This document shows, piece after piece, positions 18,988 to 34,513 of a stretch of 40,034 nt of DNA. The notes under the pieces are model-generated. The model saw only the letters and a list, made by a program, of their open reading frames with translations. It searched no databases and was not told the DNA's origin. The translations under genes were made by a program, and so were the position numbers. Numbering within the stretch: the stretch's first letter is position 1; each line of letters begins with the position of its first letter. Origin of the DNA: a virus; IMG/VR virus record IMGVR_UViG_3300042389_000626, positions 1 through 40,034 of that record; one strand, written 5' to 3'.

Positions 18988-19197
18988 TTATTTTTTAAGT
19001 CCGTATTTTATAAATTTATACCATATTCTTTCATGTAAGTAATATTGAATGGGTTTATATACTAATTCTGCCACCCCAAATGCCGCTCCTACCTTAATAT
19101 CACCACTTACCCACCACATTATACCAAATCCGATTAAAGTTGATACAATACGATATGAAATGGTTTTGGCAATGTGTCTTTTACGCTCTACTACCAT
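18988..19197 (-). CDS. DUF2061 membrane protein
   Basis: A 69-residue protein if read from MVVERKRH, the start chosen because the family begins at KRHIAKTISYR. An in-frame ATG at 19233 would add 12 residues but overlap the upstream gene by 53 bases instead of 17. It matches DUF2061: KRHIAKTISYRIVSTLIGF, a membrane segment, AAFGVAELVYKPIQYYLHER and a C-terminal IWYK. From family knowledge, DUF2061 proteins often lie next to or are fused with adenylylsulfate-kinase or sulfate-activation genes. Here the neighbour is an HxGH nucleotidyltransferase of the type seen in those fusions. The molecular role is unknown. Confidence 0.85.
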   Translation of the reverse strand: MVVERKRHIAKTISYRIVSTLIGFGIMWWVSGDIKVGAAFGVAELVYKPIQYYLHERIWYKFIKYGLKK

Positions 19198-19540: not shown

Positions 19541-19559
19541 AAATTATAATTTCGTATTT

Positions 19560-19592
19560 CTAATATACGAAAATAATTCTAAATTACCAAAT
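19560..19592 (-). promoter_or_regulatory. Promoter-like element A (ATTTGGTA-N14-TCGTATATTA)
   Basis: On the minus strand ATTTGGTA is followed after 14 bases by TCGTATATTA, ending 20 bases before the nucleotidyltransferase ATG. It is one of six copies with identical spacing. The upstream box resembles the TTTG box of Bacteroidota promoters. The downstream box contains TATATT, like a -10 element. Confidence 0.7.
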
Positions 19593-19594
19593 AA

Positions 19595-20707
19595 TTAGTA
19601 AGTTTTAACTAAATCTTCTTCTTGCTGTTTTTTATATTTCAACCAAAAATTAATAGCGTTCTGGTCGTTTATCCATTTTGATTTATCATTCCAATCAAAA
19701 TCGCTTTTTGCATAATATGGTAATTTATGCTGTATTTCTCTTGCTCTACCTGATGACTTTGGAGTAAATTCATCTATAAGTCCGTCAGAGTTTGTATCAT
19801 ATCCATCAATGTTTCCATCACCATCCAAGTCAATAGGAATCCTAACAGATGTAATTTCATTCGTTTCGTTAATCTCATTTTTCTCGTTTTCGTTAAAAAT
19901 ATTATCTCCATAAACCTCATATAACCCTAATTTTTCGTCATTTTCCATTATATCAACAATATGTTGCTTTTGTTCTTTCTTTTTTTGTAAAATTAAACCA
20001 TTAAATGCAATAATTAACGCAACTGCTAATGGGTCAAATACAATTACAATCAAAAATATGAAGAATTTTACCACATTTTTCAATTCCATACCAAATGCTT
20101 CCGCAATAAATCGAAATCCACCGACTTCTTTTTCTAAATCCAAGTTTGAAGTCTTAATTTCGTTGATTTTTTCATTATTTTTAGCATTTTCAGTTTGTAA
20201 AATCTCAATTTTTTTGTTAATTGTAGCAACTTGCTTATCTTTATTATCAATTGAACGTAAAAGACGAGAATTTATCTTACCTTTGTCTAAAATTGTGCTT
20301 TGAGTTGATGATAATTGACCCAATTGTGTGTTTAATTGATTGAGTTGTATGGTATTTTGGTCAATTTTTGTAGTATAGACTAAAATTTCTCTATCTACCT
20401 GTTGCAATTTTAAGGACTGAGATTGGAATGCATTGGAAAGATATCCAAATATACCCGCAGAGGTGATTAACATCAGTAATGCAACGGCAGAGGTCAAATA
20501 CCACTTATTAAATCCCTTTATGTTTTCCCACTCTTGTTTAAGATAAGTTGCTGCAACTAACTTTGCAAACTCTAATGCACCGGCCATTACCATAACTGAT
20601 ACGGCTGCTCCACTAAATAGAACACCTAAACCGGTTACGGAGAAGTAAGCTGCACATCCGGCAATAATTAGTGCAGAAAATCCGACTAAATATTTAAGCC
20701 AATTCAT
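19595..20707 (-). CDS. Membrane protein with coiled coil and calcium-loop-like motif
   Basis: A 370-residue protein. Hydrophobic segments lie at about 4-25, 30-50, 70-92 and 212-236, predicting an N-terminal membrane bundle and a later helix. Between them residues of about 95-195 are a long heptad-rich helix (QLNQLNTQLGQLSSTQS, KKIEILQTENAKNNEKINEI). Around residues 290-311 is a tandem Asp/Asn loop, DLDGDGNIDG followed by DTNSDGLIDE, as in dockerin, EF-hand or thrombospondin-3 calcium sites. Such loops are usually extracytoplasmic, whereas the last membrane helix and basic flank leave topology unclear. It starts directly after the stop of the 58-residue gene. No family was recognised. A phage membrane sensor or exclusion factor is possible. 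Confidence 0.7.
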   Translation of the reverse strand: MNWLKYLVGFSALIIAGCAAYFSVTGLGVLFSGAAVSVMVMAGALEFAKLVAATYLKQEWENIKGFNKWYLTSAVALLMLITSAGIFGYLSNAFQSQSLKLQQVDREILVYTTKIDQNTIQLNQLNTQLGQLSSTQSTILDKGKINSRLLRSIDNKDKQVATINKKIEILQTENAKNNEKINEIKTSNLDLEKEVGGFRFIAEAFGMELKNVVKFFIFLIVIVFDPLAVALIIAFNGLILQKKKEQKQHIVDIMENDEKLGLYEVYGDNIFNENEKNEINETNEITSVRIPIDLDGDGNIDGYDTNSDGLIDEFTPKSSGRAREIQHKLPYYAKSDFDWNDKSKWINDQNAINFWLKYKKQQEEDLVKTY

Positions 20708-20884
20708 TTATCGATTGATTCTGGTTAATTCGGCAACTCTCTCTACTATCTTTCTTGCATCTTCCAAAGTAGTGTGAGCAACTGATGGTGACATTGATTG
20801 TGCACCAGTAATTCCGTTTTGTAAAATCCTTAACTTTCCGTCTAAAGATTCTAATAACATTTGTATTTTTTCGTTGTATATCAT
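20708..20884 (-). CDS. Small unknown protein (58 residues)
   Basis: A 58-codon reading frame from the ATG complementary to 20882-20884 to a TAA that abuts the start of the membrane protein. It begins MIYNEKIQMLLESLDGKLRI and ends ERVAELTRINR; it is mostly helical with a Gly/Ser/Pro turn in the middle. The exact stop/start junction (no gap) argues that it is a real gene coupled to the next. An ATATTTAT element sits four bases upstream of the ATG, and promoter-like element F lies about 58 bases upstream. The function is unknown. Confidence 0.7.
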   Translation of the reverse strand: MIYNEKIQMLLESLDGKLRILQNGITGAQSMSPSVAHTTLEDARKIVERVAELTRINR

Positions 20885-20888
20885 AGTA

Positions 20889-20896
20889 ATAAATAT
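20889..20896 (-). promoter_or_regulatory. ATATTTAT element upstream of the 58-residue gene
   Basis: ATATTTAT lies four bases before the ATG, after the Hsp20 terminator. The short distance would give an almost leaderless transcript if it acts as a -10 element, so its role here is doubtful. Confidence 0.3.
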
Positions 20897-20902
20897 TTGT
20901 TT

Positions 20903-20942
20903 TATAATAAAAAAGGTAGAAGTGTTTAATCTCCTACCTTTT
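20903..20942 (-). terminator. Intrinsic terminator after Hsp20
   Basis: On the minus strand a nine-base perfect stem, AAAAGGTAG / CTACCTTTT, encloses a 14-base loop and is followed by a T-rich tract (TTATTATAAA). It begins 23 bases after the Hsp20 stop codon. Confidence 0.8.
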
Positions 20943-20974
20943 CAATATACGAAAAATAACTGAATTAACCTAAT
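20942..20974 (-). promoter_or_regulatory. Promoter-like element F, overlapping the Hsp20 terminator
   Basis: TCGTATATTG is preceded at the common 14-base spacing by ATTAGGTT, six of eight bases identical to ATTTGGTA. It covers the last bases of the Hsp20 gene and the start of its terminator. A transcript starting about seven bases downstream would begin inside the first terminator arm. Confidence 0.5.
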
Positions 20975-21351
20975 TTCGGGGTTAATTTTTTTGGTTTGGA
21001 CTCTTCTTTTCTTTCAATAGTAATTAAGAGAATACCATTTTTAATTTCAGCCTTTGCCTTTCTGCCATCGAAGTTTTTACCTACGGTAACTCTTTCTTCA
21101 ATGTCTGAAATTAATTGATTGAAAGGATTTTCTTTGTCCTCTTGTGTTTTTTTGGCTTTAATTTCAATCTTGTCTTCAAAACAATTGATTTCAATGTCAT
21201 CAGGATTGTGTCCTAATACTGACAATGCAATTGTTGCAGATTCATCTTTAATGTCTACTGCGAATTTGTTTTGAACATAAGTTGTTTTTGTTTTTGATTG
21301 TTCGATTGGAAAAAATTCTTCGAACAATTTACTGTAATCAATCATGTACAT
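20965..21351 (-). CDS. Hsp20 / alpha-crystallin small heat shock protein
   Basis: A 128-residue protein. The alpha-crystallin domain covers residues 25-115: the beta-strands FAVDIKDESATIALSVLGH, DDIEINCFEDKIEIKAKK and RVTVGKNFDGRKAKAEIKNG, then LLITIERKEE, which matches the family's GxLxIxxP-type end. The C-terminal extension SKPKKLTPKLG carries a K-x-L-x-P-like tail. These are ATP-independent holdases that keep unfolding proteins soluble. T4-like cyanophages commonly encode one, possibly for virion assembly. The start may be the Met at codon 1 or codon 3 (MIDYSKLF). It is followed by an intrinsic terminator and preceded by a 27-base interrupted palindrome. Confidence 0.93.
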   Translation of the reverse strand: MYMIDYSKLFEEFFPIEQSKTKTTYVQNKFAVDIKDESATIALSVLGHNPDDIEINCFEDKIEIKAKKTQEDKENPFNQLISDIEERVTVGKNFDGRKAKAEIKNGILLITIERKEESKPKKLTPKLG

Positions 21352-21384
21352 AATATAAATGTTTTTAGTTAATAATACTCTATA

Positions 21385-21411
21385 TAGTCCAAATACTATA
21401 CCAAAGGACTA
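21385..21411. promoter_or_regulatory. Interrupted palindrome upstream of Hsp20
   Basis: TAGTCC and GGACTA face each other across 15 bases, 34 bases before the Hsp20 ATG. On the minus strand TTTGGTA lies inside the palindrome and a TATATA run follows it, so it may overlap the Hsp20 promoter as an operator or hairpin. It is not the CIRCE element. Confidence 0.35.
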
Positions 21412-21428
21412 CTTTTGACATTTTGACA

Positions 21429-22076
21429 TTAAATTATGTTATCTTGTCTTTCAATGATTGTAGACATATGGTCTGCCCAATGCATAATAAATTGCAGTTT
21501 GTAAACTAATTGTTTCTTCAAATCGTGACCTGCTAAATACTTTTGATTATCTTCGTCATACATACCATCAGTAAGTTTGATTGCGAAATATTCCTTCTCA
21601 TTATACTGAATACCATAGTGGTTCAATGTAAAGAAAGTTCTATCAGTTAAAGTCATATATGGGATATTCTCATTACGAACAAACAAAGTTCCGTATTTCT
21701 TTTGAGACCATTCTTCTTGATTTGGTAAATAGTGTAATTCACCTTTAACACCCAACTTTCCCAAGTCGTGATGTAGACAACTAAATATCAATTCTTCTTC
21801 GGTGAAATCAATCTCTCCACCTTGCATTACGAACAGGTCTCTCATTTTAAGAGCGTTCTTACATACATTAAAGATGTGGTCTATATACCCACCTATATAT
21901 GCGTTATGATAGTGTTTTGAGCCAGATGCGGTAGATAGTGTAAGATTGACACCCAATTCTTCTTCGGAATACATATGGAGTAATTTCTCCAATCTTTCAC
22001 CTTTAAAATATTTTTTAATTATTGCAATAAACTTATTGTAGTTTTGCTTTAATTCTTGTTCTGTTTTTTGTTTCAT
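21429..22076 (-). CDS. HD-domain metal-dependent phosphohydrolase
   Basis: A 215-residue protein. The HD-superfamily layout is clear: histidines in SKHYHNAYIGGYIDHIFNV (around residues 55-67), then FSCLHHDLGKLG with the HD pair at 103-104 and Lys107, and a late MYDEDNQ acidic segment and HWADHMST around 205 as the last metal ligand. HD proteins cleave phosphoesters of nucleotides or cyclic nucleotides. Homologues in T4-like phages are unassigned; nucleotide metabolism or removal of an immune signal nucleotide are both possible. Promoter-like element B ends 29 bases upstream, so this gene leads its own transcript. Confidence 0.85.
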   Translation of the reverse strand: MKQKTEQELKQNYNKFIAIIKKYFKGERLEKLLHMYSEEELGVNLTLSTASGSKHYHNAYIGGYIDHIFNVCKNALKMRDLFVMQGGEIDFTEEELIFSCLHHDLGKLGVKGELHYLPNQEEWSQKKYGTLFVRNENIPYMTLTDRTFFTLNHYGIQYNEKEYFAIKLTDGMYDEDNQKYLAGHDLKKQLVYKLQFIMHWADHMSTIIERQDNII

Positions 22077-22104
22077 AATTTAGAGTTTAAATGTTTATAA
22101 TACT

Positions 22105-22137
22105 CTAATATACGACAATTTTTTGATATTACCAAAT
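22105..22137 (-). promoter_or_regulatory. Promoter-like element B (ATTTGGTA-N14-TCGTATATTA)
   Basis: This is a perfect copy of both boxes at the shared 14-base spacing. It ends 29 bases before the ATG of the HD-domain gene and abuts the stop codon of the radical SAM gene. Confidence 0.75.
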
Positions 22138-23202
22138 TTAGATTAAAGATTTTTTCAAATCTATCAATTCATACATATTATGAAAAACATAAGGATTGGT
22201 GGCCACCTTTTTAAATTCTTCTAAAAATAACATATGTTCTGGATGAGTTGCATTACCTACATCTATTAATTTAAATTGGCCGTCCGTAAATGTTCCCCAA
22301 TTGGTAATTCTGCCAAAAAATACTTTTGTTTTATTTTTGAATATAGAATATATTAAATTTAAAAAAGTTTCCATTTCATTATAATTTGAGTCTTGAACTA
22401 CAAAAGAACACTTAACACTCTGTAAAGATTTTATGGTTGAAATAAAATTTAAATTTGAAATTAGATTATCCCAATTACCTCCCAACCTTGTTACATTTTC
22501 ATAAGTATATTGAGTACCAGCATCAATACTAATTTCACAACTGTGAACATATTTATGTATATTTGGCATACTATCCCACATTTCTTCATTCCACAAACTG
22601 GCATTGGTATGTAGATGTATTGATTTTAAATTTGGATATTTTTTTGCATTGAAATTTCTTAAATAACTTCTATATGATACGGATGCAAATGGGTCTGCTG
22701 TACCAGAACAATATATTGTTTCAATCGAATCGGAATATGCATTTTCTATTTCTTCTATTGTAAGATTTACACTTTTTATCTTGTCACTATTGGCCACAAT
22801 CATATCTACTCTACATGATGGACATTTATAATTACAAGTTCTATCAAATGACATTTGAATTATTTTGGGGCCCACCGGAATTATACCAGTTTGGGTATCG
22901 TAATTCATTTTCATTTCATCACTCAAATTATCTATGTGAATAATTGGGCCGGAAATACTTTTATCATAATGAATTAATCTAGCTAAAAATGGACATTGTT
23001 TTTTATCACAATAACGATACGAACCATCCATTACAGACTTTCGTATTTCGATTGCTTCAGCTGAATTCCATAATTCTTTTATGGGAACCCCATTAGGTAA
23101 TTCTTTTTTCAGCCAGCTGGCACAACACATAAAATTTTTATTTTCATGTATTTCTAATGCTTTAAACGGAACCGTACAAACATATTGTTTTAAATCTATC
23201 AT
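22138..23202 (-). CDS. Radical SAM protein with N-terminal SPASM-like Cys region
   Basis: A 354-residue protein. The radical SAM cluster motif CNYKCPSC (Cys123, 127, 130) follows MSFDRT, the expected first strand of the TIM-barrel. The N-terminal 75 residues carry YVCTVPFKALEIHENKNFMCC and IKELWNSAEAIEIRKSVMDG, then YCDKKQCPF. This is the pattern of a SPASM domain (auxiliary Fe-S ligands plus the LWNS/IR motif), but placed before the radical core rather than after it. SPASM enzymes modify peptides or sugars by SAM cleavage. The stop codon is next to promoter B, and the start overlaps the SGNH gene's last base, so it ends the accessory operon. The substrate is unknown; the small ORFs or the Cys-tailed protein upstream are candidates. 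Confidence 0.88.
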   Translation of the reverse strand: MIDLKQYVCTVPFKALEIHENKNFMCCASWLKKELPNGVPIKELWNSAEAIEIRKSVMDGSYRYCDKKQCPFLARLIHYDKSISGPIIHIDNLSDEMKMNYDTQTGIIPVGPKIIQMSFDRTCNYKCPSCRVDMIVANSDKIKSVNLTIEEIENAYSDSIETIYCSGTADPFASVSYRSYLRNFNAKKYPNLKSIHLHTNASLWNEEMWDSMPNIHKYVHSCEISIDAGTQYTYENVTRLGGNWDNLISNLNFISTIKSLQSVKCSFVVQDSNYNEMETFLNLIYSIFKNKTKVFFGRITNWGTFTDGQFKLIDVGNATHPEHMLFLEEFKKVATNPYVFHNMYELIDLKKSLI

Positions 23203-23870
23203 TATATTAATTTATCTTTTTCACATAATGAATTAATAGTTTTTCTTAATGTATCGTCACCAATCATTTCCAAAAACTTATTCGTTAATTGTTTATGCCC
23301 TAATTCCGAATAATGTGCATCCACTATTAAACCATCGGTTTCATTGGTAATTGTAGAAAATTCACTATCACCCCATATTTTAATACGCATATCCCAAAAA
23401 GGTGTCCATTGAATCAATATCATATCTTTAAATAACCAATTCAAGAATATTATTCTTTTACATATTTCATCGTAATAAATTGGTAGTGTACGATTTACAA
23501 GTACTTCTTCTATTGTAGATTTAGATATAAATGATAGAGTAGGATATTGTTTTAAAGAAGGAATCACCGTTACAAATTTATTATTATCATTACCTAATCT
23601 AAACCTTTGCATTGAAGACCACCCTATGATAACGATATCTCCCTTATTGATTAATGGAACATTTGTATAAATCGTTTCAAATATAGTATCGTTACCTAAT
23701 GCACCTTCGGCGAGGTGTTGGACTTCTAACCCTAACTCATCACCTATAATATCACCAAATGTTTTAGGTACATATCCTTTCCATTGAACATAGGGTAATG
23801 ACCAAGAAGCATATAATTGTCTTTCAAATGGAGTAGAAAACGAATCACCGAATATCCAAAGTTTTTTCAT
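23202..23870 (-). CDS. SGNH/GDSL-like protein
   Basis: A 222-residue protein. It opens MKKLWIFGDSFSTPF, block I of SGNH hydrolases with the nucleophile Ser in GDSF. IVIIGWSSMQRFRLG around residues 80-95 sits where block III is expected, and VDAHYSELGHKQLTNKF near the end gives the Asp-x-x-His-like block V (DAHYSELGH). SGNH proteins act as esterases or acetyl/acyl transfer enzymes on carbohydrates. Two more related proteins occur within 5 kb, so the family has expanded here. It shares one base with the radical SAM gene and overlaps the sulfotransferase gene by four bases, a tightly coupled operon. Confidence 0.8.
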   Translation of the reverse strand: MKKLWIFGDSFSTPFERQLYASWSLPYVQWKGYVPKTFGDIIGDELGLEVQHLAEGALGNDTIFETIYTNVPLINKGDIVIIGWSSMQRFRLGNDNNKFVTVIPSLKQYPTLSFISKSTIEEVLVNRTLPIYYDEICKRIIFLNWLFKDMILIQWTPFWDMRIKIWGDSEFSTITNETDGLIVDAHYSELGHKQLTNKFLEMIGDDTLRKTINSLCEKDKLI

Positions 23871-24529
23871 ATTAATTTATTTAGCTTTTCTTCTATTCTT
23901 ACTTTTTTAAGTGGTGAATTAATCCACCCATTAATACACATTTCATTATATTCTATCTCACAATATTCATTTAAACATTTTATTGTTTCAATATCTTTAT
24001 TGACAAATAAATCTTCATAATAAAATAATGGATAACCTTTATCTGAAATAACTTTTAACTCCAAAGCTTTTGATTCTAAATGATGTACTAATTCTATTAC
24101 ATCGTTCTCATCATCCTCTGTTAATTCATAATATTTTTGTGTATGCCAAGTTTGTAAAGGTGTTCTATTTTTAGATATTTTAAGATGAAATGCATATGAT
24201 TCAGCTTGTAATCTTTTATTTTTTCTTTCTAATACTATTATTTTATCAAAAAACGAATAAAACCATTTCCAATAATCTTCCACACTTTTAAAAGATTCAT
24301 ATGGGTAATTATCACTATCTATAAATGTTTTTATTAATATATTTTTTTTATTTATTATTTCATTAATTGATTTTAGTTGATTGTATGTATCATCTCTATT
24401 CGGATTTGCAAAATTGAATGGTTCAAAGAAAGAATCATATTTTTTACGTTCTCTAGCTAAACAACATTTTAAATAATAAAATGTTGATGTGGAACCACTC
24501 CTACCATTACATACTATTGCAATTCTCAT
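23867..24529 (-). CDS. Sulfotransferase-like protein
   Basis: A 220-residue protein. It starts MRIAIVCNGRSGSTSTFYYL, matching the 5'-phosphosulfate loop of PAPS-dependent sulfotransferases (R-S-G-S-T). DKIIVLERKNKRLQAESYAF in the middle corresponds to the 3'-phosphate binding R...S motif. These enzymes move sulfate from PAPS to hydroxyls of glycans or small molecules. It is compact compared with typical families (about 250-300). The ATG overlaps the stop of a 28-residue ORF (ATGA), and its own stop overlaps the SGNH start. Loss or change of activity cannot be excluded from sequence. Confidence 0.78.
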   Translation of the reverse strand: MRIAIVCNGRSGSTSTFYYLKCCLARERKKYDSFFEPFNFANPNRDDTYNQLKSINEIINKKNILIKTFIDSDNYPYESFKSVEDYWKWFYSFFDKIIVLERKNKRLQAESYAFHLKISKNRTPLQTWHTQKYYELTEDDENDVIELVHHLESKALELKVISDKGYPLFYYEDLFVNKDIETIKCLNEYCEIEYNEMCINGWINSPLKKVRIEEKLNKLI

Positions 24530-24612
24530 ATAACAATTTTATTAGTTTTTAAAGGTTTATCATAGAATTCCATCCTTCTTTTTGCAAAAAATTTATTTAT
24601 AGAAAATTCCAT
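24526..24612 (-). CDS. Tiny ORF (28 residues) coupled at both ends
   Basis: A 28-codon frame starting MEFSINKFFAKRRMEF and ending KTNKIVI. Its ATG overlaps the stop of the upstream SGNH gene (TAATG) and its TGA overlaps the next ATG (ATGA). Such exact coupling on both sides suggests it is translated, or at least serves to hand ribosomes on. It is strongly basic. It has no Cys and no known motif. It could be a leader peptide or simply a coupling frame. Confidence 0.45.
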   Translation of the reverse strand: MEFSINKFFAKRRMEFYDKPLKTNKIVI

Positions 24613-25436
24613 TATATTAAATAATTTTTACTTTTATTTATATCAGTTTCCATTAAATTTGATTTTAATATAAATTTATACAATTCTTCTGCAATTAATT
24701 TATATCCTATATTATTTGGATGTTTGCCGGCTACGGATTCGTTCCAATGATTATTATCTTCCCAAACGTATCTCCTTTTTGAATCAATCAAAAAGTTTGA
24801 AAATGTTTTTTCTTTATACCCCCAATATCTACTATTATCAATTAAATTACTATTATCAACTTCACCGATTATATCTTTACTAATCATAGTATCAAATGCA
24901 TCACAAAAAATATATTGTATTCCCATTTGTTTAAATATAAATTGTAAGTGTAATATATAGTTTTGATTTACGATATCATAATATGGTTTACTAAATAAAT
25001 TAGATATATAATAGTATCTAAATTCCTTTTCTACTCTATTATAATTTACATTATTACCATTAATACCATCAAAGATATATTTAATTAGATGTTGTTTACT
25101 CTTATATCGTTCACCCCACATATGTAAAGAATCTTCGTTTGGAAAAAATGGTAAATTGTCTCTCAAAGATGATGACCACATAATAACAACAAAATCATCT
25201 TTGGTGATGATTTCATTTTTTAATTGATAACAAATTGAATTAAATATTGCGTTATTTGAAAAAGAAGCTACACCATAATTAATAAATTGGCAATCCAAAA
25301 AATCCGATAGGTGTTTAGGCCAACAATATTTTTGTCGTATTATTGTCCTTTCCGATTCAATAGATTTACTAAGTTCTTCACTTAGATTTCCACCCACACC
25401 TTCCGTCCAACTATCACCAAAGGTAAATAGTTTCAT
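24612..25436 (-). CDS. SGNH/GDSL-like protein
   Basis: A 274-residue protein. Block I is KLFTFGDSWTEGVGG (Ser in GDSW), DDFVVIMWSSSLRDNLPFF lies near residues 85-100, and block V appears as HWNESVAGKHPNNIGYKLI close to the C-terminus, with the HPNxxGY His. The block III Asn/Gly spacing is unclear. It is longer than its paralogue at 23202 and of similar lineage. A short 38-residue ORF ends four bases upstream, and the stop codon overlaps the start of a tiny ORF. A likely role is acyl or acetyl removal or transfer on a glycan; the substrate cannot be read. Confidence 0.78.
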   Translation of the reverse strand: MKLFTFGDSWTEGVGGNLSEELSKSIESERTIIRQKYCWPKHLSDFLDCQFINYGVASFSNNAIFNSICYQLKNEIITKDDFVVIMWSSSLRDNLPFFPNEDSLHMWGERYKSKQHLIKYIFDGINGNNVNYNRVEKEFRYYYISNLFSKPYYDIVNQNYILHLQFIFKQMGIQYIFCDAFDTMISKDIIGEVDNSNLIDNSRYWGYKEKTFSNFLIDSKRRYVWEDNNHWNESVAGKHPNNIGYKLIAEELYKFILKSNLMETDINKSKNYLI

Positions 25437-25440
25437 AGTA

Positions 25441-25557
25441 TTATTGTGTTACATCTACATATATAAGATTTGCAACTTCTTGCATAATAGTTACTATGTT
25501 TGTGTCTGTGGTTGAGTTAGTTAAAACAATTTCACTTTTAATTATTCTTGGTTTCAT
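25441..25557 (-). CDS. Tiny ORF (38 residues)
   Basis: A 38-codon frame starting MKPRIIKSEIVLTNSTTDTN and ending NLIYVDVTQ. It lies four bases before the SGNH gene and 34 bases after the Cys-tailed 508-residue protein, so it fits the operon spacing. The sequence alternates beta-like and helical segments and has no Cys. No family was recognised. It would be a candidate small substrate or regulator for the adjacent enzymes, but this is inference. Confidence 0.55.
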   Translation of the reverse strand: MKPRIIKSEIVLTNSTTDTNIVTIMQEVANLIYVDVTQ

Positions 25558-25591
25558 ATTTTTATTTTTAAATAAGTAATTTAATTATAGT

Positions 25592-27118
25592 TTATTTTTC
25601 TACGCCGCCGGCACAGCCCGGACAATCACCACAGTAGTATTTGGGAAAGCAACCACCATAACAATAAATACCACATGCGTTATGTTGTACAAAAAATAAT
25701 CCTAATGTAGAATCTGCCAAACTCAAATATACATCACTCGGTTCTACGTTTAACTCATAAACTTTTCTATTAACATAAACAATTTCTAAATCTATAATTT
25801 TAGATTTAGTAAGTGTATTATTACTATCATAAAATACAATTGAATCATTTATTCTAAATCTATTGGTATCTGAAAAAGTAGTTCTTAATGTATCGTATTC
25901 TTCAATATACATAACGGATGTTGGTAAATCTTCATATACTATACCATTTTCCAATGTAACTCTAATCATTGTGGTAGTTCTGGTTCCACTACTTATATGT
26001 ACCACTTCAGTTGACCCGGTTGTAAATGTTGTTAAATCTGTGTTGTAACTACCTGAGTTAACATTTGGTAGATATGTTGGGTTATCAATTGTACCCTCAT
26101 CCTCAGGAATCCAATCAAATTTCATAGTTTTGATTGTGTCTCCTACCAAAATTTCATTTGGTAATTTTAGTACATTATCAGGATATAACAATGGTGTATC
26201 ATCATCTAATATATATTGTTTCGAATATAGCATGGTTTCCGGACTTTTAGTCATCCATAAAATCCTACTGTTTGCATTCATTAAACCATTTTCATCATAT
26301 GTAGTTTCAAATTGATTATTCTTAATACCAGCGGTCATCGTATATGAACCCAAATGTAAACAACTTAAATTACCACCATATAAAATATCTAAACTTCTAA
26401 TTACCCCAATTTTCTCATTTATAAAATTTTCTGAATTTATGTGATATTCTTCGATAAATTCCGAATCGGTAACCGAAGTTTTCAATGTTGTTAAATCTTC
26501 TAATGATTCTATTTTATAAAATTTTGGATATACATTATAACCGGTGTGTGGTAGTCTTGTTTTTACAATATAATTTGGTGTGTTTCCAACGGTTGTGTGT
26601 AAATCGATTAATTTATCAATATTTAATTCTGTATCAATTGATGAACTATAATAAAAATTTGTAGAATATGATTCATTAGATATTAGTCTATGAAAATTAA
26701 CCTTATCTTTAGTATATTCTTCATCTACAATTGCCGTTGCATCATACGATGTTCTAATTATTAAAGTATTATCATTATCCTCAATAAATGGAACGGTAAC
26801 AGAACCTTTAGGAAGCATATGAATTTGGAATGTTCCACTTAACTCCTCCATGATTTCTGACATTTTATCTTTTAAAGAAGTCTTCGGAAATTCAGGATTT
26901 TTATAATTAACTATATTTTCATTTGAAATTAAATTACCATCTGTATAAATAAAATGTAAATTATTAATAGAATTATCTATTAAAAATTGTTTAAATGTCA
27001 CCCAATCAAGGCTTAATATGATTTCATTATGAACATCAACATTAGTATTTGTTTCAATTATTTTTAAATTTCCTTCAGAATCTCTTAAGAAGTCGGTTCC
27101 AATTATAAGTGCCTTCAT
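25592..27118 (-). CDS. ATP-grasp-like + degenerate Hint-like protein with six-Cys tail
   Basis: A 508-residue protein with three parts. Residues 1-290 resemble a permuted ATP-grasp: GNLKIIETNTN (the Glu-x-Asn-x-Asn type metal motif, residues 16-26), IIRTSYDA near 120, the ATP-Lys candidate YIVKTRLPHTGYN (Lys186) and FIEEYHI near 221-227. Residues 315-480 resemble a Hint/intein-type autoprocessing fold: EILVGDTIKT, MIRVTLENGIVYEDL, VYELNVEPSDVYLSL, then FFVQHN with His479-Asn480. The usual first Cys and block-B His are not seen, so it may be degenerate. The tail from Ala481 has Cys at 482, 486, 490, 496, 499 and 502. An ATATTTAT element lies 18 bases upstream of the ATG, suggesting late expression. 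It may be a virion protein or a modified-peptide carrier. The domain calls come from pattern reading only. Confidence 0.6.
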   Translation of the reverse strand: MKALIIGTDFLRDSEGNLKIIETNTNVDVHNEIILSLDWVTFKQFLIDNSINNLHFIYTDGNLISNENIVNYKNPEFPKTSLKDKMSEIMEELSGTFQIHMLPKGSVTVPFIEDNDNTLIIRTSYDATAIVDEEYTKDKVNFHRLISNESYSTNFYYSSSIDTELNIDKLIDLHTTVGNTPNYIVKTRLPHTGYNVYPKFYKIESLEDLTTLKTSVTDSEFIEEYHINSENFINEKIGVIRSLDILYGGNLSCLHLGSYTMTAGIKNNQFETTYDENGLMNANSRILWMTKSPETMLYSKQYILDDDTPLLYPDNVLKLPNEILVGDTIKTMKFDWIPEDEGTIDNPTYLPNVNSGSYNTDLTTFTTGSTEVVHISSGTRTTTMIRVTLENGIVYEDLPTSVMYIEEYDTLRTTFSDTNRFRINDSIVFYDSNNTLTKSKIIDLEIVYVNRKVYELNVEPSDVYLSLADSTLGLFFVQHNACGIYCYGGCFPKYYCGDCPGCAGGVEK

Positions 27119-27136
27119 AGTTTTTATATGTTTTAT

Positions 27137-27144
27137 ATAAATAT
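27137..27144 (-). promoter_or_regulatory. ATATTTAT element upstream of the ATP-grasp/Hint gene
   Basis: ATATTTAT followed by ATAAAAC lies 18 bases before the ATG of the 508-residue protein, separate from the upstream promoter-like element C. Confidence 0.4.
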
Positions 27145-27163
27145 AAGTATTTACTAAATAATA

Positions 27164-27448
27164 CTAAATTATTGATTTTGATTTTTTATTTATAGTGTCT
27201 ATATAGGTACTATCTATGTCCGACCACTTATTTAATGGACATGAGTTTTTTGTTTTTTCTGTAAATACTTTTTTTTGAATAGAACATAAACATTTTTTAC
27301 AATATTCATCTTGTGTAACTCTTCTATTTTTTCCATAATGTTCACATCCTAAACATATCTCATATCGTTTTTCTGCTAATTCTTTTTGTTCAGGTGAAGG
27401 ATTAAACGATATTATCCACGAACCTATAATTTCTCTTATTTTATTCAT
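27164..27448 (-). CDS. Small Zn-ribbon-type protein
   Basis: A 94-residue protein. It carries ICLGCEHYG and EYCKKCLCSIQKK, two Cys-x-x-Cys pairs, then SCPLNKW. This is the pattern of small phage and bacterial zinc-ribbon proteins such as the DUF6171 type. The N-terminal IREIIGSWIISFNPSPEQKE is helical. Zn-ribbons of this sort usually bind nucleic acid or act as adaptor modules. It is preceded by promoter-like element C, 24 bases upstream, and followed after 45 bases by the ATP-grasp/Hint gene, which has its own ATATTTAT element. The function is unassigned. Confidence 0.75.
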   Translation of the reverse strand: MNKIREIIGSWIISFNPSPEQKELAEKRYEICLGCEHYGKNRRVTQDEYCKKCLCSIQKKVFTEKTKNSCPLNKWSDIDSTYIDTINKKSKSII

Positions 27449-27472
27449 AGTAATTTATTTTCACTATATTAA

Positions 27473-27505
27473 CTAATATACTACAAATATTTTACAATAC
27501 CAAAT
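27473..27505 (-). promoter_or_regulatory. Promoter-like element C (ATTTGGTA-N14-TAGTATATTA)
   Basis: ATTTGGTA and TAGTATATTA are separated by 14 bases on the minus strand, with one base (A for C) different from the consensus second box. It ends 24 bases before the Zn-ribbon ATG and partly lies within the end of the SGNH gene. Confidence 0.7.
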
Positions 27506-28203
27506 TTTTTTATAATATACTTACCAAACAATTTGTTGTATGATGAACTCCAATGATGGTCATTTTTATGTCCAACATATCCATTGGTTTCATACCATTC
27601 GTCAGTTAAAGTATGCCATTTTCCTACCTCACTTTCAAATTGTATCTTATCAAATATAAAATCACTTTTAATTCTCATAGTATCCCATGTAAAAACAAAA
27701 TTTTTAGATGGTGTTAATTCTATTAAATTTTCTATAATTTCTATACTATTATAGATGGCAGCGTCCGTAGAATTTATTATTTGTTGTATTTCGGTTTTTT
27801 TAATCCATTCCGCCGATGTATATTCTTTACCCCAAAATTCAATATTCCAAATATCTGCCATTTGAGGGCCGCAGAATCGGTTTATAATTTTTATTTTTTC
27901 ATTATATGTTTTAGTTATCCAATGAGATTTTTCAACAGGTATTCTTGTTCGTTGAAAAAATGGTAAACAAATTATAAGTAAATCGGTTTCTTTTAAATGT
28001 TTAATTAATTTAATCCAATTGTCTATAATCGTTTGTACATCTCTGTTTGCTTGACCATCTATGGTTGTATTATATTTACTAATGTTTAATCCATTTCTTA
28101 CTACTTCCGGCCAAAATGAATTATTAGACCAATTTTTTGAATAAGTGCATGGAGCTGCGAATGAATCACCTATAACAAATAATCTTTCTATTTCATTTTT
28201 CAT
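27481..28203 (-). CDS. SGNH/GDSL-like protein
   Basis: About 240 residues, read from MKNEIERLFVIGDSFAAP. A longer frame exists upstream (from 28236), but its first codons fall inside a G-rich dispersed repeat and give a Pro/Asn-rich N-terminus, so it was rejected. Block I is VIGDSFAAP with Ser in GDSF, and a DLLIICLPFF strand lies near residues 68-77. HHWSSSYNKLFGKYIIKKF close to the C-terminus holds the likely catalytic His (in GHKNDHHWS). It is the third member of this family in the cluster. A 65-base gap carrying the G-rich repeat separates it from the upstream sulfotransferase gene. Confidence 0.75.
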   Translation of the reverse strand: MKNEIERLFVIGDSFAAPCTYSKNWSNNSFWPEVVRNGLNISKYNTTIDGQANRDVQTIIDNWIKLIKHLKETDLLIICLPFFQRTRIPVEKSHWITKTYNEKIKIINRFCGPQMADIWNIEFWGKEYTSAEWIKKTEIQQIINSTDAAIYNSIEIIENLIELTPSKNFVFTWDTMRIKSDFIFDKIQFESEVGKWHTLTDEWYETNGYVGHKNDHHWSSSYNKLFGKYIIKKFGIVKYL

Positions 28204-28215
28204 ATAATATAAATT

Positions 28216-28264
28216 GGGGTGGGGGTTGGGGGGCAAAGTCGTTTTTTAAGAAAATTTTTTAGTA
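28216..28264 (+). repeat. Dispersed G-rich repeat, copy X
   Basis: Read on the plus strand it starts GGGGTGGGGGTTGGGGGG, continues CAAAGTCGTTTTTTAAG and ends AAAATTTTTTAGTAT. It matches copies at 38113-38159 and 37356-37400, which lie in the opposite orientation. The G tract could form a quadruplex on the plus strand and is exceptional in this AT-rich genome. Confidence 0.7.
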
Positions 28265-28268
28265 TCCC

Positions 28269-28931
28269 CTATTGATAGTTGTAGTAATTGTGTAGGGTTT
28301 GGTGATTTTTCAAAAAAGTTAATAACAAATCATATTTAGTTTTTAATTGATTATAATCCCACATAGGTACACTATCCTTTTCATCTCTTAACATTCTACT
28401 CAACCAAAAACTATCCCAACCAGCCAGTTCCATTAAACTATTTCGTGACTCTTGAGGTATAAATTTTAAAATATCAGTTAAATTATTTATACCCACCGAA
28501 CTCCTATCTTGATATAAATCAGGATTATGTGTTTCATCTTTAAATAGTGTAGATAAATCTTTTAATTCTATAAATTTAAACCCTACTTTATTCCATATAG
28601 GATATAATTTTAAATATAGGTTAGATTTCCAATGAGTACCATTACCCAATAGGTATTGGTTTACATGGTCATTTAAAGTATGGTCTTTACAATTTAAAGC
28701 AAAGTCGGTAACCAATCCGGATAGCATATGTTCGGTCACATCTCTATATACAAATATGGTATCTTTTGTTACATACTTTTCAATATCTTCTATATCAAAC
28801 GAACAATAATTTGGTTTTCGGTAACAAGTTTGGTTATCCATAAAACGAGTTCCACATTTTAAAGGAGCAATTATTTCAGGACCACGTTTAAACTTAAAAT
28901 GACGTAATTGTTTTGCAAGAACTTTTTTCAT
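28269..28931 (-). CDS. Sulfotransferase-like protein
   Basis: A 220-residue protein. EIIAPLKCGTRFMD near residues 18-31 corresponds to the phosphosulfate-binding loop (P-x-x-G-T), and TIFVYRDVTEHMLSGLV near 55-71 to the R...S motif of the 3'-phosphate site. The remainder is helical, with a W-rich C-terminus. It is a close paralogue, in layout, of the next gene upstream (28928-29572), and they overlap by four bases (ATGA-type). Family assignment is from motifs only. The acceptor is unknown, but the two tandem copies suggest different positions on the same glycan or peptide. Confidence 0.72.
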   Translation of the reverse strand: MKKVLAKQLRHFKFKRGPEIIAPLKCGTRFMDNQTCYRKPNYCSFDIEDIEKYVTKDTIFVYRDVTEHMLSGLVTDFALNCKDHTLNDHVNQYLLGNGTHWKSNLYLKLYPIWNKVGFKFIELKDLSTLFKDETHNPDLYQDRSSVGINNLTDILKFIPQESRNSLMELAGWDSFWLSRMLRDEKDSVPMWDYNQLKTKYDLLLTFLKNHQTLHNYYNYQ

Positions 28932-29572
28932 ATTATATTTCGATGTAAGTTTGACACAATAGATGATTTCAATGGATTTTTTGTAACTCCCATTGATAGT
29001 TTATTATAAAATTCAGTTTCTCTTTTAACTATTTCCATTAATTTGTTCCATTCTATTGGATAATCTAATTTCATCATTTCTACTATTTCTTCTTTATTCA
29101 TCCAATTAGAACGACCTTTGAATTGAAATTCCTCGTAATCAAATATAGGTATCTTATAACCCAATGAAATTAATAATGTAGAAAGATTTTTTAAATCAAT
29201 TAATTTTATATCAACATTACATTGGATATAAAGATTATATAGTTTTTCCAATATACCACTACTCCAATGACCATTTAGTCTATCTCCATCTCCATCTATA
29301 TTAAAAAAAGAAAAGACTATATCGGAAATTGGTGTATTAGAATCATATGAACACACCACTTCGGTATGTAACGCAGAAACCAAATTTTCCATTGGGTCTC
29401 TATACAAATAATAAACCGATTTATCAAACCAATCCGGTTGTGAACATATTTCATTTATTGGTAGATTATAGTTTAAAGGAAATAGTTTTTTCAAATAACG
29501 AGTTCCATGTTTAAATGGAACAATTATAACTACTTTATTTGTAGAATCTAAAAAGTATTTTACATTTTTCAT
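28928..29572 (-). CDS. Sulfotransferase-like protein
   Basis: About 214 residues from MKNVKYFLDS. Earlier in-frame ATGs at 29623 and 29602 overlap the 48-residue gene upstream, so the start eight bases after that gene's stop is preferred. KVVIIVPFKHGTRYLKKLF has the phosphosulfate-loop form, and YYLYRDPMENLVSALHTEVV carries the R-x-P...S motif of the 3'-phosphate site. It is laid out like its neighbour at 28269. A sulfate-transfer role is inferred from these two motifs, with the acceptor unknown. Confidence 0.74.
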   Translation of the reverse strand: MKNVKYFLDSTNKVVIIVPFKHGTRYLKKLFPLNYNLPINEICSQPDWFDKSVYYLYRDPMENLVSALHTEVVCSYDSNTPISDIVFSFFNIDGDGDRLNGHWSSGILEKLYNLYIQCNVDIKLIDLKNLSTLLISLGYKIPIFDYEEFQFKGRSNWMNKEEIVEMMKLDYPIEWNKLMEIVKRETEFYNKLSMGVTKNPLKSSIVSNLHRNII

Positions 29573-29580
29573 ATTAACCT

Positions 29581-29727
29581 TTATTTGGGGTTTCTCCACC
29601 ATTTTTTCCTCTCTATATACCAAAACGGAAACTTACACACCCAATAGATAGATATACCACAGGCAGCAAGGAAAATGAGAGGAAACATCATTATAACAAT
29701 AAAGATATCATATAATCTCTTAACCAT
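29581..29727 (-). CDS. Tiny membrane protein, possible lipoprotein (48 residues)
   Basis: A 48-codon frame. Residues 1-23 read MVKRLYDIFIVIMMFPLIFL then AAC, i.e. a short basic start, a hydrophobic core and a lipobox-like L-A-A-C with the Cys at position 23. The rest is aromatic and basic (WVCKFPFWYIERKKWW). It could be a small lipoprotein, for example a spanin outer-membrane subunit or an exclusion protein, or a plain membrane protein. Its start is five bases after the 358-residue protein's stop, and the sulfotransferase start follows its stop by eight bases. The tight fit supports it as real. Confidence 0.6.
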   Translation of the reverse strand: MVKRLYDIFIVIMMFPLIFLAACGISIYWVCKFPFWYIERKKWWRNPK

Positions 29728-29732
29728 ATAGA

Positions 29733-30809
29733 TTATCTAGCAGGTTTTGGAATTTTAGCAGCAAGTTCTGCAGTTCTTTGATTAGATGCTCTTAACTCTG
29801 CGGCAAGTTGACTTTGTGCTTCTGCGTCACCGGCTTGAGCACGTTTAAGATTTTCGGCTTGTGTATTTAGAGCAGCTTGTGTAGAAGTTTTAGTATCTTG
29901 TAGTTCGGTCTTTAATTCCGTAGTCTTATTTGTAATAGTAGAATCTAATGCATCTGCTCTCTTATCACCACTATTCTTATCAACACTTACCAGTTCGGTT
30001 GACTTATATGTTACATTAGACTCATTCTCACCCTTTAATTCGGTTTGAGGAGCATTACTACCTATGGCAGTTGATGAATAGCGTGTTGAGGTTATACTAC
30101 TATCTTTGACGTTACCAGTATAGTATATTCTTTTAATGTCGTTAAAGTCTTTTCTTAGAGCAATGATTCTCTTTTGAAGTTCTTCTAGATTTTTAGCAAG
30201 GAGCGTCTTATCTACAATGGCTTTATCGGTAGTAGGAGATAATACAGGCATTTGTTGAATAGTATAGTTAGCAGCAAGGTTTAAATCCCATAACTCCCAT
30301 TCATCAGGTGGTCTCTCTGTACTATCGGTTAAAGAATAGTTTAATTGTTGAAGTAATTTTTTAGCAACGGGTATACCAGTATCTTCATCTTCTTTTCTAT
30401 CGTATATCCACTCTACTTCTTTTACACCTGAGAAAGGTAACATAATACCTTCTATCTCTGCGGTTTCTCGTATTGATTGTATATCCAATTCAATGATAGG
30501 AAGTGTATTACCAATTATAACCGAACCTGATAGGGTGTTTACCGTCGTTACATCATCATACCAAAGATGGGGATTTACATTTTTTGAATCCATAAGGTCG
30601 TTATACAACTCTTGTGAACAAAAATAATCATCTTCTATCTTTATAATCACTACTATTGTATCATCTAATACCGGATGTAGTGTTAATTCTTTAGTTGCGG
30701 CTGGGAATGTATATGGGATAGTCTTTAACGAACCCGATGATGCGTCTACCGACCATACGTTTTCTTTTCTACTATACCTTTGTGGGTTATTAATTACTTC
30801 TAGTATCAT
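29733..30809 (-). CDS. Unknown protein with coiled-coil C-terminus
   Basis: A 358-residue protein. The first 200 residues are mixed beta/helix with many acidic residues and a WELWDLNLAANYTI segment. Residues of about 205-225 are helical (LAKNLEELQKRIIALRKDF). From 250 on it is Thr/Ser/Asn-rich, ending in an Ala/Gln/Glu-rich helix (NLKRAQAGDAEAQSQLAAEL) likely to be a coiled coil. It has one Cys. The composition recalls phage virion or injected proteins. It overlaps the upstream 99-residue gene by 20 bases, and an ATATTTAT element precedes that upstream gene. No family was recognised. Confidence 0.7.
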   Translation of the reverse strand: MILEVINNPQRYSRKENVWSVDASSGSLKTIPYTFPAATKELTLHPVLDDTIVVIIKIEDDYFCSQELYNDLMDSKNVNPHLWYDDVTTVNTLSGSVIIGNTLPIIELDIQSIRETAEIEGIMLPFSGVKEVEWIYDRKEDEDTGIPVAKKLLQQLNYSLTDSTERPPDEWELWDLNLAANYTIQQMPVLSPTTDKAIVDKTLLAKNLEELQKRIIALRKDFNDIKRIYYTGNVKDSSITSTRYSSTAIGSNAPQTELKGENESNVTYKSTELVSVDKNSGDKRADALDSTITNKTTELKTELQDTKTSTQAALNTQAENLKRAQAGDAEAQSQLAAELRASNQRTAELAAKIPKPAR

Positions 30810-31869: not shown

Positions 31870-32100
31870 CTAAGCTTTAGCCTTTGCAGGATGTAGTTCA
31901 AAGATTTGTTTTAGATATTCATCTTCATTCTCCATATCTTCTGCAGACATCTCATTGTATCTCTCTAATAAAGCTATTGCGGACCTGATTTCATCTAACT
32001 GCTTTGACGCTGCCCATTTAGGTTTACCGTCTTGCAATGATTTAATCTTCTTCATTAATACTATCTCGTCTTGTTTAAGTTTGTGTATTGCGTAATCCAT
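31870..32100 (-). CDS. Small helical protein
   Basis: About 76 residues from MDYAIHKLKQDE. An earlier in-frame ATG (32127) overlaps the upstream zincin gene by 67 bases, so the later start, overlapping 40 bases, is preferred though not certain. The sequence is a Lys/Glu-rich helical hairpin (LKQDEIVLMKKIKSLQDG, LDEIRSAIALLERYNEM) ending HPAKAKA. The function is unknown. The large overlap with the 3' end of the upstream gene is unusual. Confidence 0.55.
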   Translation of the reverse strand: MDYAIHKLKQDEIVLMKKIKSLQDGKPKWAASKQLDEIRSAIALLERYNEMSAEDMENEDEYLKQIFELHPAKAKA

Positions 32101-32492
32101 TTTGCTTTTTGTTTTATATGTGCCCAACAGGGCTTTGTGTATTTATCTTCGTTTCTTCTTGCTTGCCTCTCATACGGGTTTCTACTGTATGTACCGGGGT
32201 AAGCATCGTATTTTGTTAATATCGGTTGTAATTGATGTGTCCATTCGTGTATGCAAGTGCCTATCAGCTCTCTTACATCATAGCAATTGTTATAGTATAT
32301 GTGCACCTCATTATCAGTAGCATCATACTCACCACAATCACTATCCCATCCTATGCGGACTGACCATACGGGTTGATATTTTTTTCTATTGTTCACTCCC
32401 ATATTTTTCCGGCACCAGCGCAATGCCATATTTGCTATCGCTACGGCATGCTTTCTCTCTAAACTTTCAACCTTTGTGTTTAAGTAAATCAT
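32061..32492 (-). CDS. Zincin-like metalloprotein (HExxH)
   Basis: A 143-residue protein. IGTCIHEWTHQLQP holds the HExxH metal-binding motif (His82, Glu83, His86), and NPYERQARRNE, about 24 residues later, provides a Glu candidate for the third ligand, as in SprT-like or M-type zincins. The N-terminal half is alpha/beta with a KKYQPVWSVRIGWDSDCG strand. It could be a protease or a metal-dependent binding protein; proteolysis is inferred from the motif only. The terminator at 32511-32540 lies upstream, between it and the tRNA-like gene. Confidence 0.72.
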   Translation of the reverse strand: MIYLNTKVESLERKHAVAIANMALRWCRKNMGVNNRKKYQPVWSVRIGWDSDCGEYDATDNEVHIYYNNCYDVRELIGTCIHEWTHQLQPILTKYDAYPGTYSRNPYERQARRNEDKYTKPCWAHIKQKAKWITQYTNLNKTR

Positions 32493-32510
32493 TCGTATTA
32501 TTTCGTTATA

Positions 32511-32540
32511 AAAAAAGTGGCTCTATTGGGGAGCCACTTT
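32511..32540 (-). terminator. Intrinsic terminator after tRNA-like gene
   Basis: On the minus strand AAAGTGGCTC and GAGCCACTTT form a perfect ten-base stem with a seven-base loop, followed by TTT and an A/T tract. It ends the transcript that carries the lipoprotein gene and the tRNA-like gene. Confidence 0.85.
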
Positions 32541-32560
32541 GTTAACTATCAAAGCTTTCT

Positions 32561-32768
32561 TTGTAAAGTAAATCGGAGAATAACCTATTTGTAAAGTAAC
32601 CAATATGCTTTTGATATAGAGCGGTGAGCTAGAATTGAACTAACTCCTATAATCTGGGAGACTATCATGCTTCCCGCGGCTTTTACGTCCGTGTGGATAC
32701 CATTACACCTTCACCGCTTCATTAGGACGAGGAATCTTTACAACCATATTGCTATGGAATCTTTACAA
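32561..32768. repeat. Short repeats flanking the tRNA-like gene
   Basis: TTGTAAAG occurs twice on one side (32561, 32589) and its complement CTTTACAA twice on the other (32736, 32761), the latter within a 15-base direct repeat GGAATCTTTACAACC. CAATATG at 32601 and CATATTG at 32745 are also complementary. The leader and trailer of the precursor could therefore pair as nested helices around the tRNA. Confidence 0.5.
32620..32717 (-). tRNA. tRNA-Gly(CCC)-like gene with 27-base D-loop hairpin
   Basis: A 98-base cloverleaf on the minus strand. The acceptor stem GCGGTGA/TCACCGC is perfect and T is the discriminator, as in bacterial tRNA-Gly. The T arm is GTTAG-TTCAATT-CTAGC. The anticodon arm is ATAGT-CTCCCAG-ATTAT with anticodon CCC. 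The variable loop is AGGA. The D stem GTGT/GCAT has two G-U pairs, and its loop AATGGTA carries the conserved GG. Between this and GCAT lies an extra 27 bases that fold on themselves (TCC..CGG / CCG..GGA). Without the insert the length is 71, normal for Gly. Position 8 is A instead of the usual U. CCA is not encoded. Confidence 0.7.
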
Positions 32769-32780
32769 CCTCGTGCTAAA

Positions 32781-33095
32781 TTATTTTACTACTGATGTAG
32801 TATCAGCTACTGGAGCTACTACTGCTGTATCTACTTTTGTAGAATCCACTGCAGTTGAATCAGCTTTCACTTCAGTCGATGCAGTTCCACATGCTACCAT
32901 ACCCAAAGTTAACACTAATGCCATCGCACCTACTTTTGCTTTATTCAAAATAGATGATAAACGCTTTGCGTTATAAAGAGCCTTAGTTGTATAAAAGTCT
33001 CTCTTTTGTTCACTAATAGTAGTAGCAGCTTCGTTTAAGTTGTTTACTAATTCTGTTACCTGATAGTTTACCTTTGTTGCAATTTTCTTTGCCAT
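32781..33095 (-). CDS. Lipoprotein-like protein with displaced lipobox
   Basis: About 104 residues from MAKKIATKVNYQ. An earlier ATG at 33140 would add 15 residues; the later one has a better A-rich leader. Residues 1-55 are a charged helical segment (YQVTELVNNLNEAATTISEQ). They are followed by KAKVGAMALVLTLGMVAC, a lipoprotein signal with a lipobox-like G-M-V-A-C and Cys69, then a Ser/Thr/Asp/Val-rich tail (STAVDSTKVDTAVVAPVADT) typical of outer-surface lipoproteins. The signal is displaced some 55 residues from the start, which is odd. It is transcribed from promoter-like element D ahead of the tRNA-like gene. A superinfection-exclusion role is possible but inferred. Confidence 0.6.
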   Translation of the reverse strand: MAKKIATKVNYQVTELVNNLNEAATTISEQKRDFYTTKALYNAKRLSSILNKAKVGAMALVLTLGMVACGTASTEVKADSTAVDSTKVDTAVVAPVADTTSVVK

Positions 33096-33206
33096 GTTAT
33101 TTTTTTGCTTCCCTTTAATTATTAATTGTTCAAACTCCATTGAGGCGGGTCGCTTTTACCTCAGCTTCGTTTGTATCTTTATTGTGTTAATGTCTCTTTG
33201 TTATAT

Positions 33207-34095: not shown

Positions 34096-34413
34096 TTAAT
34101 GTGTTGAATTTAATTCATAATGAAACTTTTGTAATTGCTTTGTTTCGTATTGGTGTGCGGCAGCTTTTCCTCTTATTACTTTGACTATAAACAATTCGTA
34201 TACCTCTTGTGCATACTCTCTCATATCGTTATACAATGCCCAGTTCTTATTCTCTTTACGAGCTCGACTGAAATGTTTTTGTAATCGTAGTTTTGCAGAA
34301 TAGTGGAAACGTCTACCAATAGCCGCAGTAATACCAATATAACTTTTACCATTTTCAGTATTCACTATTTCGTATACTATGTGGTTTCTATCGTTTCGTT
34401 TCTTTCTATTCAT
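34096..34413 (-). CDS. GIY-YIG-type endonuclease-like protein
   Basis: About 105 residues from MNRKKRNDRNHIVYEI. An ATG at 34437 exists, but this later start lies one base after the stop of a 32-residue gene and is coupled to it. HIVYEIVNTENGKSYIGITA matches the GIY-YIG signature (V-Y-E...Y-I-G), followed by GRRFHYSAKLRLQKHF with the conserved Arg and, later, HQYETKQLQKF with the Glu metal ligand. Stand-alone GIY-YIG proteins in phages act as homing endonucleases or repair nucleases. It is compact, with no extra DNA-binding domain seen. Confidence 0.8.
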   Translation of the reverse strand: MNRKKRNDRNHIVYEIVNTENGKSYIGITAAIGRRFHYSAKLRLQKHFSRARKENKNWALYNDMREYAQEVYELFIVKVIRGKAAAHQYETKQLQKFHYELNSTH

Positions 34414-34414
34414 A

Positions 34415-34513
34415 CTATTTAATTTTAATGTCCTCAAATCTAATATCCTTATCGGTTAAGTTTAATGTGTGTCCGATATATACCACACTCAAAAAGATTA
34501 CTATTCCTATCAT
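34415..34513 (-). CDS. Tiny membrane protein (32 residues)
   Basis: A 32-codon frame starting MIGIVIFLSVVYIGHTLNLT with one membrane helix (residues 2-14) and a polar end. Its stop is one base before the GIY-YIG start and its ATG two bases after the stop of the 88-residue gene. The tight spacing supports translation. The function is unknown. Confidence 0.5.
   Translation of the reverse strand: MIGIVIFLSVVYIGHTLNLTDKDIRFEDIKIK

Follow-up and report, generated by a model that had tools for sequence, protein, structure and literature searches.

A variable family of tRNA-like modules, some with an enlarged D-arm, behind a phage lipoprotein gene and beside GOLLD RNA

A tRNA-like gene whose D-loop carries 27 extra bases raises the question of whether these bases are spliced out, are kept as an additional arm, or belong to a molecule that only mimics a tRNA. 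These three options were offered in the initial annotation of a tRNA-Gly(CCC)-like element in IMG/VR virus record IMGVR_UViG_3300042389_000626, the whole 40,034-nucleotide (nt) stretch of which is referred to here as the window. The element was confirmed at 32620..32717 on the minus strand, which the annotation had not given, and measures 98 nt from G1 to U73; read from 32717 to 32620, it is GCGGTGA AG GTGT AATGGTA[TCCACACGGACGTAAAAGCCGCGGGAA] GCAT G ATAGT CTCCCAG ATTAT AGGA GTTAG TTCAATT CTAGC TCACCGC T. Comparative sequence evidence makes it somewhat probable (roughly 0.55) that the element is a non-decoding, glycine-identity tRNA-like module in the 3' untranslated region (UTR) of a phage lipoprotein transcript, where it would be processed by tRNA enzymes. 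The larger finding is a variable family of tRNA-like modules on phage transcripts and GOLLD RNA.

The window copy is as first described: the acceptor (7/7 pairs), anticodon (5/5) and T (5/5) arms are fully paired, the discriminator is U73, the variable loop has 4 nt, position 8 is A, and removal of the extra bases leaves 71 nt. The anticodon loop, CUCCCAG (32654..32660, minus strand), contains U33, A37 and the anticodon CCC (32656-32658), and the element is followed by a CCA-like tail, C74 U75 A76 (32617..32619, minus strand), for which most relatives have TCTA, TCCA or TCAA. The extra segment occupies 32671..32697 (minus strand) between G19/U20 and A21, a placement that is uncertain to within 1-2 nt and based on alignment with four insert-free homologues from the same locus (L126, L127, L132 and L134).

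These and other relatives bear on whether the extra bases are removed. Syntenic loci were fetched from IMG/VR using the lipoprotein-like gene, a metalloprotease-like gene and one DNA motif, and an element was found at the equivalent place, between the lipoprotein gene and a terminator domain, in about 50 related viral contigs; the curated cloverleaf set comprises 36 homologues and the window. Enlarged relatives of 98-100 nt belong to two sequence types (TATCCACACGG... and TTACC[T/A]CACGG...) and carry an insert of 25-28 nt that is common to many, while in L171 the same D-loop site holds another hairpin of 13 nt (ATAC-GAAA-GTAT). Ordinary-size tRNA-Gly relatives measure 70-74 nt, intermediate forms 41-42 nt, and the smallest are 32-nt minihelices that consist of the acceptor and T-arm only; the D and anticodon arms are missing at this locus from L120, L125, L136, L135, L133 and L331. 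Nearly all same-locus forms share a stack of roughly 12 base pairs (bp) formed by the acceptor and T stems, together with the T-loop, and nothing more, and in L307 the downstream domain is present and the tRNA-like element absent. Because homologues lack the insert, carry a different short hairpin, or lack the D and anticodon arms altogether, nothing is left for splicing to restore, and the size series marks the D-arm as dispensable. Thus, on present evidence from sequence comparison, the 27-nt insert is a genuine and inherited extension of this arm, with no sign of an intron. A D-loop intron, spliced to yield a 71-nt tRNA, would account for the normal length after removal and for the TA/TA repeat that flanks the insert in L081-like copies, but the minihelix and short-hairpin homologues make it barely credible; moreover, no bulge-helix-bulge was identified, and we know of no bacterial or phage enzyme for such splicing. 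In archaea, introns at non-canonical tRNA sites, the D-loop among them, have a bulge-helix-bulge and are removed; the phage element resembles them in its extra D-loop bases but has neither such a motif nor a need for one. Of the options first offered, the enlarged D-arm and the tRNA mimic fit these data, whereas splicing does not.

Covariation in related phages, initially suggested as a check, is indeed found. Across the 37 cloverleafs, compensatory substitutions occur in the anticodon and T stems and in acceptor pairs 4-7, which goes beyond what chance would give. Every copy forms acceptor pairs 4, 6 and 7, each of which shows 3-5 pair types; individual pairs of the anticodon stem form in 32-37 copies and show as many as six types, and those of the T stem form in 34-37; L087, for instance, has a T stem of TGTAG/CTACA in place of GTTAG/CTAGC. 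At least three of the four pairs of an outer D-stem, GUGU/GCAC (GCAU in the window), are present in all 37; an inner alternative, GUGU/ACAC, is weaker, since type-2 copies break the pairing (UCAC). Loss of the cloverleaf pairs in relatives had been named as the observation that would speak against the element: cloverleaf relatives conserve and covary these pairs, whereas minihelix relatives keep the acceptor/T stack only. A decaying tRNA pseudogene would be in line with the relaxation of U33 and U8 described below and with the loss of arms in some lineages, but the compensatory changes, the near-complete pairing in every arm, the retained identity set and the persistence at one locus in dozens of contigs render this very improbable.

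That the insert folds on itself, as proposed at the outset, is supported by its conservation across many metagenomes and by changes that fall mostly in the apical loop (GUAAAA, GUAAA or GAAA, and UUCG in a paralogue), rather than by folding energy. The cloverleaf with the nested D-hairpin is the outright minimum-energy fold in several type-2 copies (L101, L112). Since the hairpin sits at the naturally variable G19-A21 site, it could project away from the tRNA elbow and so be accommodated, and the 27 bases would stay in the RNA as a stable D-loop extension. Two further ideas were abandoned: base-pairing between GUAAAA in the insert loop and UUUAC in the 3' domain, because the loop of L112 is GAAA while its partner is unchanged, and a link between A8 and the insert, because the insert-free L300, L116 and L344 also have A8.

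Decoding was assessed against the canonical array tRNAs of related phages. U33 is present in 23 of the 37 tRNA-like elements and in 134/134 array tRNAs (Fisher p about 5e-11, uncorrected for shared ancestry), and U8 in 14/37 and 129/134, respectively (p about 2e-14, likewise uncorrected). Seven-nt anticodon loops have U (17 copies), C (10), A (2) or G (2) at position 33, and six copies have eight-nt loops; the latter (CATACCAG, CATTCCAG, TATTCCAA) occur in L101, L102, L112, L116, L344 and L171. U33 and U8 are thus not universal in the family, and in the window copy U33 stands together with A8. The bacterial glycine identity set consists of U73, G1-C72, C2-G71, G3-C70, C35 and C36 (PMC9976931). 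In the 37 cloverleafs, it is kept almost without exception (C2-G71 in 36, all others in 37), most minihelices retain G1-C72, C2-G71 and U73, the 3' tail reads U-C-N-A in most forms, and the leader has A at position -1 in 35/37. Relaxed U33 and U8 beside a kept glycine set make selection look like acceptor-end recognition rather than codon reading. Judged across the family, these are not the traits of a decoding tRNA, and the identity set suggests charging by glycyl-tRNA synthetase (GlyRS).

It is nonetheless conceivable that the window copy is a working tRNA-Gly(CCC) that tolerates the extra hairpin and reads GGG/GGA: it has U33, the anticodon CCC, A37 and full glycine identity, and insert-free homologues score 44-54 bits with the Rfam tRNA model RF00005. 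We consider this unlikely, as C33, A33 or eight-nt anticodon loops occur in close relatives that share the insert, syntenic forms lack the anticodon arm, GGG is infrequent among the codons of the window (4 per 1000), and related-phage records that carry tRNA arrays contain separate, ordinary tRNA-Gly(UCC) genes. The element resembles bacterial tRNA-Gly(UCC/CCC) in its cloverleaf, identity nucleotides, T-loop (TTCRANN) and D-loop G18G19, and differs in the 27-nt extension, A8, the family-wide relaxation of position 33 and the existence of syntenic forms that lack both the D and the anticodon arm. A non-proteogenic tRNA-Gly of staphylococci serves cell-wall synthesis; the phage element would likewise be a glycine-accepting tRNA freed from decoding constraints, although its anomalies differ and no transferase partner was identified for it.

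Gene finders treat these forms unequally. ARAGORN called no tRNA in the window, and Rfam at its gathering score gave no match for the element and no GOLLD (RF02032) or transfer-messenger RNA (tmRNA) match there, whereas both recognise several insert-free relatives. In a relaxed Rfam search, the best match was tRNA-Sec, with the extra bases read as a long variable arm; a class II or tRNA-Sec identity was dropped because 25 bits fall short of the cut-off of 47 and homologues place these bases in the D-loop. The element shares with tmRNA a tRNA-like acceptor/T-arm domain that does not decode, but it has neither a tag reading frame nor split ends, and G3-C70 with U73 does not give alanine identity (G3-U70). 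Some related phages encode a separate tmRNA, with genes lying beside tRNA arrays (L378:707-1052, L380:15160-15495, L375:4249-4615).

Similar modules occur in a second setting. In five related records, a paralogous tRNA-like element starts 4-7 nt after the end of GOLLD RNA (RF02032, 261-302 bits); it is a cloverleaf in L375, L376, L377 and L380 and a minihelix in L378. The paralogue at L376:1573-1669 (record G003) has a D-loop hairpin of its own, CCACGCGGG-UUCG-CCCACGGG, which resembles CCACACGG...CCGCGGG of the window; the same record also holds a 32-nt minihelix at the lipoprotein locus. Irregular tRNA-like elements lie 9 nt past GOLLD in LR756502 and 18 nt past it in Acinetobacter phage vB_AciJM_313. 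tRNAs near GOLLD or in its linker, and a pseudo-tRNA inside GOLLD, are known (PMC12286853, PMC6582537). The paralogues are likewise irregular tRNA-like elements beside a structured phage RNA, directly 3' of it, whereas the window element stands behind a lipoprotein gene. A literature search, with some key GOLLD papers outside its reach, returned no report of the window element and no account of 3'-linked, D-loop-extended or minihelix GOLLD forms. Separately, GOLLD transcripts in these phages seem to be longer than the Rfam model, with additional structured domains (L377:1854-2068, L376:1670-2000, L378:2590-2870) that lead to a conserved terminal hairpin, TATTAACC.GAGCATGAC...GGCGTATTTTGAA. A structural docking module, in which the T-loop/acceptor stack packs on another part of the transcript or on GOLLD with no enzyme involved, would agree with the T-loop conserved even in minihelices, with insertion into two structured RNAs and with the lack of glycine identity in L378; it leaves the conserved glycine set and the U-C-N-A tail unexplained and appears quite improbable.

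The initial annotation overlooked this GOLLD side of the family and the relaxed position 33, as well as the 3'-UTR setting and a second structured domain. Directly upstream, at 32781..33140 (minus strand, as for all features of this locus), lies a lipoprotein-like open reading frame (ORF) of 119 amino acids with a lipobox (...LGMVACG) and a Thr/Asp/Val-rich C-terminus; it has homologues at the equivalent place in 39 viral loci and matched no family in Pfam or PHROGs. Between its stop codon and the element, a leader hairpin (CGAGG...CCTCG, 32728..32773) encloses two exact direct copies of GGTTGTAAAGATTCC, and relatives have unrelated hairpins at this position. Downstream follows the 3' domain (32547..32616), whose closing stem (32607-32616/32547-32555) surrounds GGTTATTCTC (32576-32585) and TTTACTTTACA (32562-32572), and then an intrinsic terminator hairpin (32510..32540). 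The terminator loop, CCAAUA (32524-32529), forms the 3' half of a pseudoknot with UAUUGG (32600..32605), which lies just inside the closing stem. Loop and segment covary in 41 distinct combinations (CCAAUA/UAUUGG in the window, CCGAGA/UCUCGG, CCGAUA/UAUCGG, CCAAGA/UCUUGG, CUAGAGA/UCUCUAG, AUGGAA/UUCCAU and others); their longest Watson-Crick match averages 5.3, compared with 4.0 (standard deviation 0.14) for shuffled partners, and none of 400 shuffles reached 5.3 (4.9 against 3.7 when only distinct loops are counted). The pairing was not seen in L180, L344 and L298, and the pseudoknot-terminator (32510-32616) and its homologues matched no Rfam family at threshold. The next gene, at 32061..32492, is metalloprotease-like (CIHEWTHQ motif; PHROG 87, E 0.0048) and served as a synteny anchor.

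Since relatives keep either a normal-size tRNA or a 12-bp mini-tRNA at this spot, the element is probably an enzyme handle rather than a codon reader. tRNA enzymes would recognise its acceptor/T-arm stack: host RNase P would most likely cut at the 5' end, and tRNA 3' processing with CCA addition would follow at the other. The pseudoknot-terminator RNA that follows might thereby be parted from the lipoprotein message, or glycylated RNA might be produced, to the presumed benefit of the phage. Alternatively, RNase P might leave the module uncut at the 3' side of the lipoprotein mRNA and of GOLLD, to which it would stay joined covalently as a tRNA-like structure that protects or recruits, as in plant viruses. 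This would suit its position directly behind a coding region or non-coding RNA and the CCA-like tail and glycine identity retained even where decoding features are not. However, transcription continues into the conserved pseudoknot-terminator domain, so that a free CCA end requires cleavage on at least one side, and RNase P classically needs no more than a 12-bp acceptor/T stack as its substrate, which makes an uncut module rather doubtful. Plant-virus 3' tRNA-like structures (Val, His, Tyr) are similar in being 3'-UTR mimics with kept aminoacylation determinants and a pseudoknot nearby, whereas here the genome is that of a DNA phage, the identity is glycine, charging is predicted from identity elements, and the mimic precedes the terminator domain.

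Several observations weigh against a non-decoding module processed by tRNA enzymes. The energy of the insert hairpin is unexceptional (10% of dinucleotide shuffles are as stable for the window and about 60% for type-2 inserts), and the unconstrained fold of the window prefers another D-region pairing over the D-stem by about 3 kcal/mol. The window copy, with U33 and a plausible anticodon loop, could decode. RNase P prefers R73, and the element has U73. L169 has U2-A71, and glycine identity is missing from the GOLLD-linked minihelix of L378, so that any charging would not extend to the whole family. Finally, the sequence counts are not independent events.

Searches beyond the locus added little. 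A scan of bacterial genomes with the 3'-domain motif gave 24 matches, none with the element, which were taken as chance; a nucleotide search of named phages found no relatives, and a loose acceptor pattern scanned in viral contigs returned mostly noise. In L137, L138, L139, L298 and L305, further structured insertions separate the tRNA-like element from the 3' domain, with a second T-arm-like element in L298. In Microcystis phage Mel-JY01, a T-arm-like hairpin (GTAGGGTTCGATTCCCTGC, L373:930-975) precedes a terminator near a homologue of the metalloprotease-like gene and is possibly a remnant of the same module. Elsewhere, the window encodes a GIY-YIG homing endonuclease ORF (34096-34437, about 1.4 kb upstream of the element), a peptide deformylase (18349-18984, PHROG match) and, by eye, a surface-modification-like block (15682-30809) with carbamoyltransferase-like, SGNH-hydrolase-like, sulfotransferase-like and radical-SAM-like ORFs. 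The baseplate protein of the window shares 39-40% identity with those of Flavobacterium phage immuto and Microcystis phage Mel-JY01.

It can be proposed tentatively, at somewhat less than even odds, that in a large group of phages, aquatic and probably infecting Bacteroidota, lipoprotein mRNA and GOLLD carry tRNA-like modules that accept glycine and serve as handles for processing or charging. If so, DNA phages would possess a tRNA-like-structure system, and its natural series, from a full cloverleaf with a D-arm hairpin to a 12-bp minihelix, would reveal the tRNA parts that are required for the function. With the same tRNA kept, enlarged or stripped at one syntenic locus, it can be tested directly which of the tRNA enzymes (RNase P, the CCA-adding enzyme, GlyRS, EF-Tu) serve phage RNAs that do not decode. 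The tolerated D-arm extension is a form overlooked by current tRNA finders, and GOLLD, a nanocage RNA, gains a recurrent, covalently linked tRNA-like partner.
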